Source: Nocardioides sp. L-11A (GTDB taxonomy: Bacteria > Actinomycetota > Actinomycetes > Propionibacteriales > Nocardioidaceae). From it: 64,000 bases of DNA. The notes below the pieces were generated by a model, which was not told the DNA's origin, made no database searches, and saw nothing but the letters and a program-made list of their open reading frames with translations. Each line of letters opens with the position of its first letter. Position 1 is the stretch's first letter. The stretch lies in the NCBI GenBank assembly GCA_029961745.1, contig CP124680.1:1984001-2048000 (forward strand), in the 5' to 3' direction. The position numbers were made by a program, and so were the translations under genes. Positions 16,866 to 21,549 of this stretch are shown piece after piece.

Positions 16866-17759
16866 ATGTGGTTGATCGCGGCATTCGCGCTCGCGGGCGG
16901 GCTCGCCCAGCTCGTCGACGGCACGCTCGGCATGGGCTTCGGCGTGACCTCGGCGACGGTGCTGCTGGCGCTCGGCGTCGCCCCGGCCACGGCGAGCGCC
17001 GCGACCCATGCGGCGAAGCTCCCGACGACCTTCGTCTCCGGCATCGCGCACTGGCGGGCCGGCAACGTCGACCCCAAGGTGCTGGTGCGCGTCGCCCTGC
17101 CCGGTGCGGTCGGCGGCTTCCTCGGCGCCGTCATCCTCACCTCGATCAGCCTGGAGGCGGCGAAGTCGTCGATGGCCGGGCTGCTGATCTTCTTCGGGCT
17201 GGTGATCCTGGTCCGCTTCGGCTTCGGGCTGCGGATCATCCCGGTCCCGAAGTCCGGTCACACCGCGCGCTGGCTCTCGCCCATCGGCCTGCTCGGCGGC
17301 TTCGTCGACGCGACCGGGGGCGGTGGCTGGGGCCCGGTGGTGACCCCCAGCCTGATGACGGTGACCAGTCACGAGCCGCGCCGCGTCGTCGGCACCACCA
17401 ACGCGGCGGAGTTCGTCGTCGCCCTCTCCGTCTCCACCGGCTTCATCACCGGCGCCGCGCACCAGGACATCCCCTGGCTCCCGGTCCTCGGCCTGGTCCT
17501 CGGCGGCGTCCTCGTCGCGCCCATCGCCGCCCGCCTCGCCGGCCGGCTCCCGCACGCACCGATGGGCGCGATGGTCGGCGGCCTGGTCATCCTGGTCAAC
17601 GCCGTCACCGTCGTCGGCGCGGTGACCGACCTGCCCATCGTCCTGGACGTCGTGCTGATCGTCGGGTGGCTGGCGCTCGTCGGCCGGATCGCATGGCGGG
17701 CGTGGGGCCGCGAGCGGGTGGCGGTCGCCGAGCAGGACGCGACCCCGGTCCCCGCCTGA
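16866..17759 (+). CDS. TSUP family (TauE/SafE) membrane permease
   Basis: A 297-residue membrane protein with about eight hydrophobic segments in two repeats. Each repeat carries the glycine-rich TauE/SafE signature: GGLAQLVDGTLGMGFG at 11-26 and LGGFVDATGGGGWGP at about 134-148, with TTNAAEF in the second half. The family moves sulfite, sulfoacetate, taurine-derived anions or other small organic anions across the membrane. No sulfur metabolism gene is adjacent, so the substrate is open. The ATG at 16866 lies just after a 28-bp dyad. The gene ends about 140 bp before the methyltransferase island. Confidence 0.84.
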   Translation: MWLIAAFALAGGLAQLVDGTLGMGFGVTSATVLLALGVAPATASAATHAAKLPTTFVSGIAHWRAGNVDPKVLVRVALPGAVGGFLGAVILTSISLEAAKSSMAGLLIFFGLVILVRFGFGLRIIPVPKSGHTARWLSPIGLLGGFVDATGGGGWGPVVTPSLMTVTSHEPRRVVGTTNAAEFVVALSVSTGFITGAAHQDIPWLPVLGLVLGGVLVAPIAARLAGRLPHAPMGAMVGGLVILVNAVTVVGAVTDLPIVLDVVLIVGWLALVGRIAWRAWGRERVAVAEQDATPVPA

Positions 17760-17766
17760 GAGGCGG

Positions 17767-17820
17767 TCAGGCGAGCAGCCGCTCGCACTCCTCGATCAGC
17801 CGCGCCCCTCGCTTTCCACG
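17767..17820 (-). pseudogene. 3' remnant of the 20.6-21.5 kb gene, left of the island
   Basis: Read on the minus strand, these bases encode RGKRGARLIEECERLLA followed by TGA. This matches the end of the protein encoded at 20612-21517 (RGAPLRARLVEECRRLL) in the same frame. No start or remaining body is present, so this is a detached C-terminal tail. It places the original 3' end of that gene on the far side of the methyltransferase-nuclease-Vsr island. Confidence 0.65.
17785..17807. repeat. Left direct repeat flanking the methyltransferase island
   Basis: 23 bp identical at 22 positions to 20645-20667, in the same orientation and 2,860 bp apart. The repeat is coding sequence for the C-terminal tail (ARL(I/V)EEC) of the gene right of the island. 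It is a candidate left boundary (attL-like). Confidence 0.65.
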
Positions 17821-17898
17821 GGTGCGGCGCGGAGGCTCTGGTTTTGTCGGCCCGTTCGTCTACGGTGCTCTCAAGACCTAGGGGAACGAGGAAGACGC

Positions 17899-19092
17899 GT
17901 GCGGATCGCGGGGCTTTTCGCCGGCATTGGAGGCATTGAGCAAGGCTTCCATCGGGCGCTGGGGGATGCCGTACAGACTGAACTCCTCTGCGAGTGGTGG
18001 CAACCGGCCCAGGAAGTGCTCAAGGCTCGGTTCCCCGAGAGCGAGCTCCACCCTGACGTGCGGGAGTTGCGCGACCTGCCCACCGGCCTCGATCTGCTCT
18101 CGGCTGGGTTTCCGTGCACGGATCTGTCGCAGGCTGGCCGGACGGCGGGCATCACGGGCGATGCTTCGGGGCTGGTGGCCCACGTCTTCGAGGCCCTGCG
18201 ACTGGCCGCTGCGAGTGAGGGCCGGTTGCCGTGGCTGATGATCGAGAACGTGCCGAACATGCTGACGCTCGACAAGGGCAAGGCGATGGCCTATCTCGTC
18301 AAGGAGATCGAGGCGCTTGGCTATCGCTGGGCCTACCGCGTCGTTGACTCTCGGTTCACGGGCGTACCTCAGCGTCGACGCCGAGTGATCCTGCTGGCGT
18401 CGACCACGGACGACCCTCGTCCAGTTCTCTTCGCCGACGACGCGGGGGAGAGGCCCGAGGTCGACCTTGAGGCTGATGCATTCGGGTTCTACTGGACCGA
18501 GGGCCGCGGGGGTCTGGGATGGGCGCAGGACGCCGTCCCGACCCTAAAGGGCGGCTCGACGATCGGTATCCCTTCGCCGCCCGCCATCTGGGTGCCCGGA
18601 GCTCGTGACGACCGGCTCTTCGTCACGCCGCGGATCGAGGACGCGGAGGCCATGCAGGGCTTCGACCGCGGATGGACCGACGTGGAGATCACCGGTCGCA
18701 AACATGGGCATCGCTGGAAGCTCGTGGGCAACGCCGTGACGACCCGCGTGGCTGAGTGGGTCGCTGGCCGCATCGCCTCGCCGGGTGCGGTGGTAGACCT
18801 GACCGGACCCGAGATCACCCATCGCTGGCCGACGGCGGCGTGGGGGGAGCGCGGGAAGGCCCATAAGGTAGAGATCTCGGAGTTCCCACTGCTCGCGCCG
18901 TACGAACACCTGTCGGCGGTGGTTGACCTGAATGAGGCCACGCCACTGAGCGGACGCGCCATTAACGGCTTCCGCAATCGTCTCTCGCAAGGCAACCTCG
19001 GCCGCTACGACGGCTTTCGCGACGACGTCGACCGCTATGCAGAGTTGATGTTCGGTGCGGTTCTCCCGCTCGCTGACCGCAAGGTGAGCTAG
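17899..19092 (+). CDS. DNA (cytosine-5)-methyltransferase
   Basis: A type II-style C5 methyltransferase of 397 residues. SAM motif I is LFAGIGG (6-12). Motif IV has the catalytic cysteine C73 in GFPC, motif VI is ENV (116-118), motif VIII is QRRRR (158-162), and motif X is GNAV (277-280). The target recognition region between VIII and X is short (about 100 residues). About 100 residues follow motif X, longer than usual, and may hold extra specificity or partner contacts. The GTG at 17899 has a GAGGAAG site. A candidate endonuclease and a Vsr nuclease follow within 80 bp, so it is the modification arm of a restriction-modification system. Codon use is less GC-rich than in the flanking genes, which suggests transfer. 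Confidence 0.92.
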   Translation: MRIAGLFAGIGGIEQGFHRALGDAVQTELLCEWWQPAQEVLKARFPESELHPDVRELRDLPTGLDLLSAGFPCTDLSQAGRTAGITGDASGLVAHVFEALRLAAASEGRLPWLMIENVPNMLTLDKGKAMAYLVKEIEALGYRWAYRVVDSRFTGVPQRRRRVILLASTTDDPRPVLFADDAGERPEVDLEADAFGFYWTEGRGGLGWAQDAVPTLKGGSTIGIPSPPAIWVPGARDDRLFVTPRIEDAEAMQGFDRGWTDVEITGRKHGHRWKLVGNAVTTRVAEWVAGRIASPGAVVDLTGPEITHRWPTAAWGERGKAHKVEISEFPLLAPYEHLSAVVDLNEATPLSGRAINGFRNRLSQGNLGRYDGFRDDVDRYAELMFGAVLPLADRKVS

Positions 19093-19102
19093 CGTCTGCC
19101 GT

Positions 19103-19954
19103 GTGCATGGACCGGAGATCTTGGCCAGATACCTGACCACTCTCGGTCCTCCCGACAAGAACGGTGTCCGCTGGCAGTACCACTCCCGATCCGATCGGCA
19201 CTCGAAGGTAGGATCCTGGGGAGTCGCGTTCGATCTCCTCCGTACGTCATCGCTGATGCAGTCCCACGTTACCTCCGGCAAAGTCATCTTGGGCGTCAAC
19301 CACGAGATGCGTGACTACGCCACTGGCCGCAAGAAAGATCTCGACCTCGTGATCGCCCGCCCGAACGGCGGAGTGCCGGCAGGCGGTCCATCACTGAAGT
19401 CGCTGGCAACTCAGTACCGGATCAACCTGACCCCTCAAGAGCAGACACTGCTTGCCGGCCTGCCAGACATTCCGGTCGCCCCAGTTGGCGCGACGCTGGT
19501 CGCCCTTGAGGCAAAAGCCACCATGACCGCGCATGTGAAGTCGCTGCCTCGCCTGTACGACGAGCTGAACTCGTCGCACCTCTGTGTGCACGGCTCATCT
19601 GTGCAGGCGCTCGCCATCGCGTACGTCCAGGTGAATCACTCCGCGACCTTCGTGTCTCCGATTATCAACTCGAAGGACATGGCTCGTGGACTCCCGCCGG
19701 AGATCACGAAACACAAGCAGCCCGCTGACACGCAGCGAGTGCTCGACAAGGTCGCCGAGATCCCGAGGCGCAGCAACAGCAAGGGCACCGGCTTCGATGC
19801 CATCGGTGTCACTGTGCTCGATCTCGTCAACGATGGCTCGCCCGTGAGGCTTGTGAACAGTCCGCCGGCGCCGCAGCAGGGTGACAACTTCCACTACGGG
19901 TCGATGATCGTGCGGATGGCGAACGAGTACGACGCAACCTTCGCTCACATCTGA
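19103..19954 (+). CDS. Candidate type II restriction endonuclease, PD-(D/E)XK fold
   Basis: I do not recognise this 283-residue protein as a named family. It contains a possible PD-(D/E)XK nuclease core: an acidic pair at D79/D81 in KKDLDLVI and, about 54 residues later, a hydrophobic strand ending in E136-A-K138 (LVALEAK). After that comes a helix with charged residues (HVKSLPRLYDEL). It begins 10 bp after the methyltransferase stop and is followed by a Vsr gene, the usual place for the cognate restriction enzyme. No membrane segment or signal peptide. Start GTG 19103. The nuclease assignment rests on context plus this weak motif; a non-nuclease accessory protein is possible. Confidence 0.55.
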   Translation: MHGPEILARYLTTLGPPDKNGVRWQYHSRSDRHSKVGSWGVAFDLLRTSSLMQSHVTSGKVILGVNHEMRDYATGRKKDLDLVIARPNGGVPAGGPSLKSLATQYRINLTPQEQTLLAGLPDIPVAPVGATLVALEAKATMTAHVKSLPRLYDELNSSHLCVHGSSVQALAIAYVQVNHSATFVSPIINSKDMARGLPPEITKHKQPADTQRVLDKVAEIPRRSNSKGTGFDAIGVTVLDLVNDGSPVRLVNSPPAPQQGDNFHYGSMIVRMANEYDATFAHI

Positions 19955-19970
19955 GGCGTACCGTGGCCGC

Positions 19971-20390
19971 ATGGTCGCTGAGTCATGGGCCACGAGCCCC
20001 GGGACCCGAGCGTCGATGCGGGGGAACCGCCGAAGCGGCACCAAGCCGGAGATTGCCATGCGCTCGGCGCTGCACGCCGCCGGCTATCGTTTCCGCAAGG
20101 ACTATCCGCTTGATCTGGGCAGCGTGAGACCACGGCCTGACATCGTGTTCACGAAGCCCAAGGTCGCGGTGTTCGTGGACGGCTGCTACTGGCACTCCTG
20201 CCCCGAGCACGGCACTCAGCCGAAATCGAACGCCGACTACTGGAGGCCGAAGTTGGCGCGGAATGTCGAGCGCGACCGTGAGCACGATGCGGCGCTTCGC
20301 GAAGCGGGATGGACAGTGGTCCGCATCTGGGAGCACGTGCCGGTGGTCGAGGCCGTGGACGTTGTTTCCCGGGCGGTCTCCCGCGAATGA
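19971..20390 (+). CDS. vsr: Very short patch repair (Vsr) endonuclease
   Basis: Vsr nicks DNA next to T:G mismatches that arise when 5-methylcytosine deaminates, so it offsets the mutagenic effect of the neighbouring C5 methyltransferase. The 139-residue protein has the family features: MRGNRR near residue 16, KPEIAMRSALHAAGYRFRKD, RPDIVF with the metal-binding D57, and VDGCYWHSCPEHG (69-81). The position matching catalytic H64 of the E. coli enzyme is D70, while the second histidine (H75) is kept. As far as I recall, many actinobacterial homologues have the same aspartate. Start ATG 19971, 16 bp after the candidate endonuclease. Confidence 0.93.
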   Translation: MVAESWATSPGTRASMRGNRRSGTKPEIAMRSALHAAGYRFRKDYPLDLGSVRPRPDIVFTKPKVAVFVDGCYWHSCPEHGTQPKSNADYWRPKLARNVERDREHDAALREAGWTVVRIWEHVPVVEAVDVVSRAVSRE

Positions 20391-20611
20391 GCGGCCGGTG
20401 TGTCCGATCCCGGTTGCGATGACGATGCGACGTCACATTCTGAGGATTTCCCAGCCTCGCAGCACCGCCTTGCAGGCTCGAAGGTGATTGTGAGGACGAG
20501 CCCGCCGCCGCTGCCAGCCGTCAAGTTCCGATGTCATCGACCTCCTCGCGGGCTGGCGTTTGTGGCAATCGCAAGATCCTCTTGACTCACCTATTCGCGC
20601 CCTAGGCGAAT
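20391..20611. other. Intergenic region at the right end of the island
   Basis: 221 bp with lower GC than the surroundings. It lies between vsr and the 3' end of the next minus-strand gene. I see no integrase, tRNA or convincing small reading frame in it. The short frames present lack a ribosome binding site. Confidence 0.5.
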
Positions 20612-21517
20612 TCAGTCTGACTTGGAAGCGGTAAGAAGTCGCCGGCACTCCTCGACCAGCCGCGCCCGGAGCGGAGCGCCCCGCTCGGCGAACCCGCGCT
20701 GCGCCTCGACGTACGCGGCCTTGCCGTCGGCGGTCTCGATCGGCACAGGCTCGAAGCCGAGGTCCCGCAGGTCGTACGGCGCTGCCCGCATGTCCATGAC
20801 CCGGATGTCCCAGGCGAGCTCGAAGCAGTCGGCGACCAGATCGGAATCGACCATCGGCGCGAGCCGGAAGGCGTGCTTGTAGAGGTCCATCCCGGCGTGC
20901 AGGCAGCCGGGCTGCTCGAAGGCGGGCCGGTCGTCGCGTCCGGGGGAGAGCGTGTTGAGGGGGCGTGCGGGCGGGGTGAAGAAGCGGTAGGCGTCGAAGT
21001 GGGAGCAGGCGATCCGGTGGCCCTCGACGACCTCGTCGGTGCCGGCCGGTCCCAGGCGCAGCGGCCAGTCGGCATGGCGGGTCTCGTCATCGGCGAGGCG
21101 GTAGACCATGGCCCACTCGTGCAGGCCGAAGCAGCCGAAGTGCGGCGCGCGGGCCGCGGTCGCGGTGAGCAGACGGTGGAGGGCCGCGACGAGGGGCTGC
21201 TGGGAGCGCACGTACTCGGGAGTGACGCCGAGTCGGGTGGGTGAGAGTGAGCCGGGGCTCACTCCTGCCCCTACGACTCCGTAGCCCTTGAGGTCCGCAT
21301 ACTCCTCCGCGTCGTCCAGGCCGACGCTGAACCCGGGGTGCCAGCGGCGCAGCTGGGCGGGCCGGTAGGAGTAGTAGGTGAACAGGAAGTCGAAGACCGG
21401 GTGCTTGACGTGCGCCTCGCGTCGGGCGAGATGCGGCGCGACGTACCGGTCGATGCGGGTGGCATGGTCGGCGACCCGCCGACGCCATTCCTCCCCGTCC
21501 AGAACCAGCACTGTCAC
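20612..21517 (-). CDS. Conserved actinobacterial protein, often labelled 3-methyladenine DNA glycosylase
   Basis: A 301-residue protein of a family common in Actinobacteria. Characteristic stretches are HPVFDFLFTYYSYRPAQLRRWHPG (about 39-62), FGCFGLHEWAMVYR, LRLGPAGTDEVVE and EQPGCLHAGMDLYK. Databases often call it 3-methyladenine DNA glycosylase, but I see no helix-hairpin-helix or AlkD-like signature and regard the function as unproven. A conserved Cys/His set is visible. Start GTG 21517 is chosen over a TTG at 21526. The last residues (TASKSD) differ from the homologous tail left at 17767-17820, which suggests the 3' end was replaced when the methyltransferase island entered. Confidence 0.75.
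   Translation of the reverse strand: MTVLVLDGEEWRRRVADHATRIDRYVAPHLARREAHVKHPVFDFLFTYYSYRPAQLRRWHPGFSVGLDDAEEYADLKGYGVVGAGVSPGSLSPTRLGVTPEYVRSQQPLVAALHRLLTATAARAPHFGCFGLHEWAMVYRLADDETRHADWPLRLGPAGTDEVVEGHRIACSHFDAYRFFTPPARPLNTLSPGRDDRPAFEQPGCLHAGMDLYKHAFRLAPMVDSDLVADCFELAWDIRVMDMRAAPYDLRDLGFEPVPIETADGKAAYVEAQRGFAERGAPLRARLVEECRRLLTASKSD
20645..20667. repeat. Right direct repeat flanking the methyltransferase island
   Basis: Partner of 17785-17807 (22 of 23 bases equal). Here it is the functional coding sequence for the C-terminal part of the neighbouring gene, about 30 bp before its stop. It marks the candidate right boundary of the island. Confidence 0.65.
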
Positions 21518-21549
21518 GACGGGCAAGCGTAGGTCGATAGGCTCGCTGC

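Follow-up and report, generated by a model that had tools for sequence, protein, structure and literature searches.

A probable restriction-modification cassette at an insertion hotspot in the 3′ end of a Nocardioides gene

How does a three-gene island come to sit in the 3′ end of a protein-coding gene with no integrase in sight? The question is raised by a 64,000-nucleotide stretch of Nocardioides sp. L-11A (here called the window), which comes from a genome of 5.68 Mb on a single contig. Three plus-strand genes, predicted to encode a C5-cytosine DNA methyltransferase, a restriction endonuclease and a Vsr mismatch endonuclease, lie between a TauE/SafE family gene (positions 16866-17759 of the window, plus strand; PF01925; here TauE) and a minus-strand gene (20612-21526). 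NCBI names the latter "3-methyladenine DNA glycosylase," a putative function; it has no Pfam match, and we refer to it as gly. We found that the gly 3′ end is an insertion hotspot in Nocardioides. On balance, we favor the view that the island is a restriction-modification (R-M) cassette delivered by an integrative element that attached inside gly and that later lost its integrase and most of the displaced gly tail.

The direct repeat, the detached tail and the empty site

The initial annotation of this DNA described a 23-bp direct repeat (22/23 identical) around three genes of low GC content. The repeat was confirmed and extends to 34 bp (17774-17807 and 20634-20667; 29/34 identical), with the left core at 17785-17807 and the right copy lying within the gly coding sequence. 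No 23-mer match better than 17/23 arose in 40 shuffles of the two 200-bp stretches, compared with the observed 22/23. The GC content of the island (17808-20633) is 64.7%, compared with 72.5% for the whole window, and all of the 277 overlapping windows of the same size outside the island lie above it, with a minimum of 67.9%. The GC content at third codon positions (GC3) is 78 to 82% in the three island genes and 89.5 to 97% in the four flanking genes measured, so that the proposed difference in composition was borne out for GC content and, as regards codon use, for GC3.

The far side of the island carries a detached native gly 3′ tail (17767-17820, minus strand). It is in frame and has its own stop codon, reading RGKRGARLIEECERLLA and ending in RLIEECERLLA, whereas the gly gene of the window ends in RRLLTASKSD where the native type has ECERLLA. 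These last gly codons (20612-20644, minus strand) have the look of having been supplied by the island, being unlike native ends and resembling, to 6 nucleotides past the stop codon, the gly end of Nocardioides sp. LHD-245 (G162, locus L037). At its other end, gly starts at a TTG at 21526 or at a nearby internal start codon.

If the island had entered the gene 3′ end, replaced the last codons and left the native tail on its far side, as the initial annotation proposed, an empty site should join the gene directly to the tail. We found such a site in a relative (G014), in which gly ends in GAGGAGTGCGAGCGGCTGCTCGCCTGA and runs through its stop codon toward TauE, with the TauE match starting about 36 bp beyond. 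Collinearity of the window tail with this empty site extends through the gly end, the stop codon, the spacer and TauE, and the tail shares 80.4% identity with the end of the G014 gene but 66.0% with that of its own gene (over about 51 to 53 aligned columns). TauE also follows gly closely in G083 (102 bp) and G035 (10 bp), and it lies within about 100 bp of gly in 3 of the 38 loci compared. The G014 site thus supports the proposed insertion. The repeat of the window is short when taken alone, at 34 bp, which is what might be expected of a chance similarity or of a gly end duplicated locally without the help of a mobile element. This explanation is countered by the collinear tail, by the shuffles and by the low GC content and GC3 inside the island; we rejected it on the first two of these grounds and regard it as exceedingly improbable.

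gly as an insertion hotspot

We searched 215 Nocardioides genomes with the C-terminal 95 residues of gly and inspected the matches; five genomes had no gly match. At least 13 of the 215 genomes (12 in addition to the window strain) have extra gly 3′ pieces downstream of gly, a lower bound because the window tail is itself too short to be detected in this way. Apart from the window strain, 15 genomes had two or more C-terminal matches, of which three were dropped: G149, with adjacent pieces of a single gene; G189, with a match of 49% identity more than 100 kb away; and G017, with the same gene on two contigs and 9% contamination. According to tblastn, 10 of the 13 pieces start at codons 204 to 215, the others starting at codon 232 (G033), codon 248 (G162) and about codon 287 (the window). 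The contents between gene and tail vary, and 11 of the islands at the gly end lack the cassette found in the window; IS3-like and IS256-like genes were recognized, by eye only, in G139 and G002. These 11 genomes are relatives that lack the three genes and yet carry both tails, with other DNA in between, a situation that the initial annotation had held against its own account. We read them as products of repeated insertion and not as a sign that the history is wrong. The insertion itself is supported; what is not is its portrayal as an isolated, integrase-free event, the gene end being a hotspot at which four recombinases were found.

In the four genomes concerned (G140, G188, G058 and G198), a gene for a large serine recombinase lies directly beside the tail. 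A Pfam check, which covered the G140, G188 and G198 proteins, gave Resolvase and Recombinase matches above the cut-offs, whereas a zinc-ribbon match fell short of its own. The tails of all four elements start at codons 208 to 214, and in G140 and G188 gly turns foreign right after a core, GACCTCTAC, at codon 212. Relative to the window gly, identity falls at this core from 81.4 to 72.6% in G140 and from 84.2 to 68.1% in G188, whereas the gly gene of G081 matches the G140 tail at 92.8% identity. This arrangement is how prophage e14 sits in icd of Escherichia coli, where insertion took place after codon 362 and a 165-bp segment was duplicated with 12 changes (PMC11148124, PMC6379469).

The window shows the same order in the 3′ part of gly, namely, gene, island and native tail, and it shares with the four recombinase-bearing elements both the gene and the side on which the island lies. 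It differs from them in that they keep a recombinase, have tails that begin near codon 212 and carry other cargo, including small-terminase-like proteins of the Terminase_7 family in G140 and G198, which suggest that these two are phage-satellite-like elements. The e14 element resembles the window island in lying within a protein-coding gene, having the native tail on its far side and being grounded in place, and it supplies a new 3′ end, as the window island may also have done, but the window retains only the three-gene R-M cassette, with no integrase found and a tail of about 54 bp compared with the 165 bp of e14. We tie the window island to the serine recombinases because site, order and orientation agree, no recombinase gene having survived there, and for the latter reason we describe it as derived from serine-recombinase elements and not as a member of that group. 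The kind of system is already known, and what the analysis adds is the hotspot, its recombinases, a second and separately acquired copy of the cassette, and an element that carries it. Among the titles and abstract beginnings listed from the open-licence literature, none describes gly as a site used by serine recombinases, and we found no paper in the open-licence literature on the attachment sites of large serine recombinases in Nocardioides.

Several further observations concern the same gene end and its enzymes. In G015 (L153), two gly 3′ pieces lie in tandem downstream of gly, which suggests two successive insertions at the same core. The gly gene of G025 (L147) is foreign after the codon-212 core, with identities of about 60% downstream and 76 to 88% upstream in the pairs listed; no gly tail was found within 15 kb of it, and the island is perhaps larger or the tail lost. 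The gly-site recombinase and tail of G058 (L111, L154, L155 and L112) lie about 46 to 48 kb from gly, so that the element there could be a complete prophage or some larger integrative element. The window genome has two other serine-recombinase genes (G000:C1:2118635-2119615 and G000:C1:1383065-1384216), neither of them at gly, whose products are 36 to 37% identical to the G140 enzyme.

A second copy of the cassette and a carrier element

The LHD-245 genome (G162) has the same order as the window: TauE, gly tail, methyltransferase, nuclease, Vsr and gly. Its tail and gene end form a repeat of 152 bp (138/152 identical), compared with 34 bp in the window, and the original repeat of the window may have been much longer than 23 bp. 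The G162 tail and gene are close both to each other (87.9%) and to G014 (89.1% between the tail and the G014 gene), with the other genes compared giving lower values, whereas the window tail resembles the G014 gene end more than its own gene. In addition, G162 has about 530 bp between TauE and the gly tail, possibly with a small open reading frame (ORF) (L037, 2882-3411), that is absent from the window.

The two cassettes are much more diverged than the DNA around them. The flanks are 87 to 89% identical and the cassettes 78% identical; by blastn, homology runs from 17815 to 20371 (plus strand; 77.9% at the nucleotide level) and is absent between 20372 and about 20602, in the noncoding right end of the island (20391-20611). 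Synonymous divergence (dS) is 1.18 for the methyltransferase, 0.90 for the nuclease and 0.98 for Vsr, compared with 0.23 for TauE, 0.23 for an FAA hydrolase gene and 0.40 for gly. Distances at 4-fold degenerate sites are 0.58, 0.53 and 0.49, respectively, for the cassette genes, the median in 41 other ORFs being 0.23. They are no higher than 0.34 in the 36 nonisland ORFs with nonsynonymous divergence (dN) below 0.4; the remaining five were set aside for dN above 0.4, are probably wrong frames and include one with a 4-fold distance of 0.57, measured on 14 sites. Part of the dS excess of the island could come from its lower GC3, since dS falls with GC3 among the other ORFs (Spearman −0.37). A nuclease tree of 47 rows places the G162 copy with those of G003 and P0004 (99/89) and the window copy with P0001 to P0003 (94/93). 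Forcing the window and G162 nucleases together made the tree 43.5 log units worse, with an approximately unbiased (AU) test p value of 0.0185 that is weakened by the group having been picked with the tree already in view. On the strength of dS, the 4-fold distances and the AU test, we rejected the idea that the window strain and G162 inherited the whole island from a common ancestor. As judged from these sequence comparisons, the cassettes probably did not descend together with their flanks; given that they are far more diverged than the flanks and do not form a sister pair in the nuclease tree, acquisition or replacement took place separately in the two strains.

These data bear on a different history, in which an element entered gly in the common ancestor of the window strain and G162 and the cassette was later swapped in each lineage by homologous recombination. 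The gene ends of the two strains are similar and nonnative (28/36 positions in an ungapped alignment, followed by 10/34 beyond it), and the divergence of the cassettes and their separation in the nuclease tree are also what later swapping would produce. This history nevertheless requires that, in one lineage or both, a cassette of the same kind came in as the replacement, the two tails are cut at different points, and we found no intermediate with this gene end and different cargo. We consider it unlikely.

How such a cassette could travel is illustrated by G003, in which the methyltransferase and nuclease genes lie inside an element that spans about 12.7 kb and encodes a tyrosine integrase (PF00589). 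The element is bracketed by a 39-bp repeat (38/39 identical), one copy of which is in a tRNA-Met gene, and its methyltransferase and nuclease are 83 and 86% identical, respectively, in amino acid sequence to the window proteins; no match to Vsr was found within the 32 kb read. The element thus has the same two enzymes as the window but occupies another site, uses another integrase family and retains both its integrase and its two repeats. Other G003 element genes have matches in the G198 island, among them a helicase at 34%, and in the G140 island, at 45 and 60%. The cassette copies in G011, G118 and Ornithinimicrobium are not at gly, and no long bracketing repeats were found within 5 kb of them, in a scan that also missed the G003 repeat, the far copy of which lies beyond 5 kb.

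Delivery by an integrative element, the account that we favor, would have run as follows. A phage-satellite-like element with an attachment site inside the 3′ part of gly would have carried the cassette as cargo, and its integration, presumably by a serine recombinase, would have placed element DNA after gly, substituting the 3′ end while keeping the gene open. The native 3′ piece would have stayed on the far side, beside TauE. Later deletions would have taken the integrase together with the remaining element DNA and the 5′ portion of the tail, so that the defence cassette was left fixed in place.

Several results weigh against this account. No match to a serine recombinase was found by tblastn at an E value of 0.01 in the window or G162 island, neither tail reaches the codon-212 core, and no element was found to combine this cassette with a serine recombinase of the gly type. 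In the window gly, the difference from the native type is confined to roughly the last ten codons, and the 3′ part of the gene is close in protein sequence to the gly of Nocardioides sp. BYT-33-1. A regression of identities along gly (2,390 pairs of 73 gly rows, with G188 entered twice and with pairs below 60% downstream identity and six loci excluded beforehand) gave no foreign 3′ part for the window gene (z of 0.43 against G162, in a weak fit with a slope of 0.09); G162 against G014 gave a z of 1.96, high but within the upper tail. A DNA tree of five cassettes did not resolve their order, and the nonnative gene end shared with G162 fits an old common insertion followed by cassette replacement equally well. 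In a comparison of gene and tail by best blastn piece, covering 12 of the 13 loci and leaving out G058 with its distant tail, identities ranged from 69.9% in G140 and 68.8% in G198 to 97.0% in G063, 93.4% in G139 and 92.6% in G002. In the last three, where no recombinase match was obtained, gene and tail are each other's closest match. The gene ends there are thus not foreign, which shows that a foreign end is no general rule at this site; gene conversion between copies or a real duplication could account for the likeness.

Such near-identity of gene and tail would also fit if the island had instead been joined by an integrase-free process that copied about 150 bp of target, as in R-M genes of Helicobacter, a pattern described for R-M genes in PMC1643837 and PMC3031569 (Nobusato et al. 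2000, as reported in both). As depicted there, insertion with long target duplication resembles the present case in its R-M genes and in that no integrase was found, and its long direct target repeat has a counterpart in the 152 bp of G162, against only 34 bp in the window. Also in keeping with it are a G162 tail closer to its own gene than to any compared except that of G014, and the native-looking 3′ part of gly. It differs in that the gly site is also used by recombinase-bearing islands: the same gene end hosts the 11 islands without the cassette, four of them with a serine recombinase. The integrase-bearing G003 element with its 39-bp repeat and the G011 and G118 copies, which have no long bracketing repeat in the 5-kb scan, likewise speak against it, and we consider this explanation quite improbable.

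Under delivery by an integrative element, one gene end in one genus displays stages that can be read in order, intact serine-recombinase elements first, then decayed ones and finally a defence cassette on its own, and an R-M system can give the impression of being integrase-free and "self-inserted" at a site that integrases in fact use. A broader proposal, which we put forward tentatively and with rather less than even confidence, is that the 3′ part of gly is a dedicated landing site for serine-recombinase phage satellites in Nocardioides, that it received the R-M-Vsr cassette at least twice independently from carriers that then decayed, and that the middle protein would found an undescribed, widespread family of Type II endonucleases.

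Predicted functions of the cassette genes

The methyltransferase gene (17899-19092, plus strand) matches PF00145 (E value of 7.7e-37) and the PADLOC model MTase_II PDLC03324 (E value of 4.2e-122), and its product has ENV and QRRRR motifs. The third gene (19971-20390, plus strand) matches the Vsr models TIGR00632 (E value of 3.8e-41, above its cut-off) and PF03852. A C5 methyltransferase family match and an adjoining Vsr family match are two marks of a Type II R-M system with Vsr, and the cassette is probably such a system, with the product of the middle gene (19103-19954, plus strand) as its predicted PD-(D/E)XK restriction endonuclease (D81 and E136-x-K138). The methyltransferase would mark host sites, the nuclease would cut unmarked DNA, and Vsr would repair T:G mismatches arising at 5-methylcytosine.

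The middle ORF had no match among Pfam, NCBIfam or PADLOC models, and Foldseek gave none at an E value of 0.001 among the structures listed by VIA-align. It has 3,083 homologues, usually beside C5 methyltransferase genes and often beside Vsr genes too, indicating a widespread nuclease family for which the libraries searched contain no curated model. There was no match to it in 50,697 phage records and a single match, of 25 residues, in viral contigs; it was found in 3 of 72,556 plasmid records and in 5 of the 215 Nocardioides genomes (two copies at gly, one in the G003 element and two elsewhere).

Gene order around the nuclease varies. In Rhizobiaceae plasmids (L170 and L171), the nuclease gene is convergent to Vsr and dcm and overlaps the end of Vsr, unlike the codirectional nuclease, Vsr and methyltransferase genes of the window and G162. 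In G011, the cassette is preceded by two ORFs (L040, 5085-7026, in reverse-complement orientation) that by eye resemble defence or DUF262-type genes.

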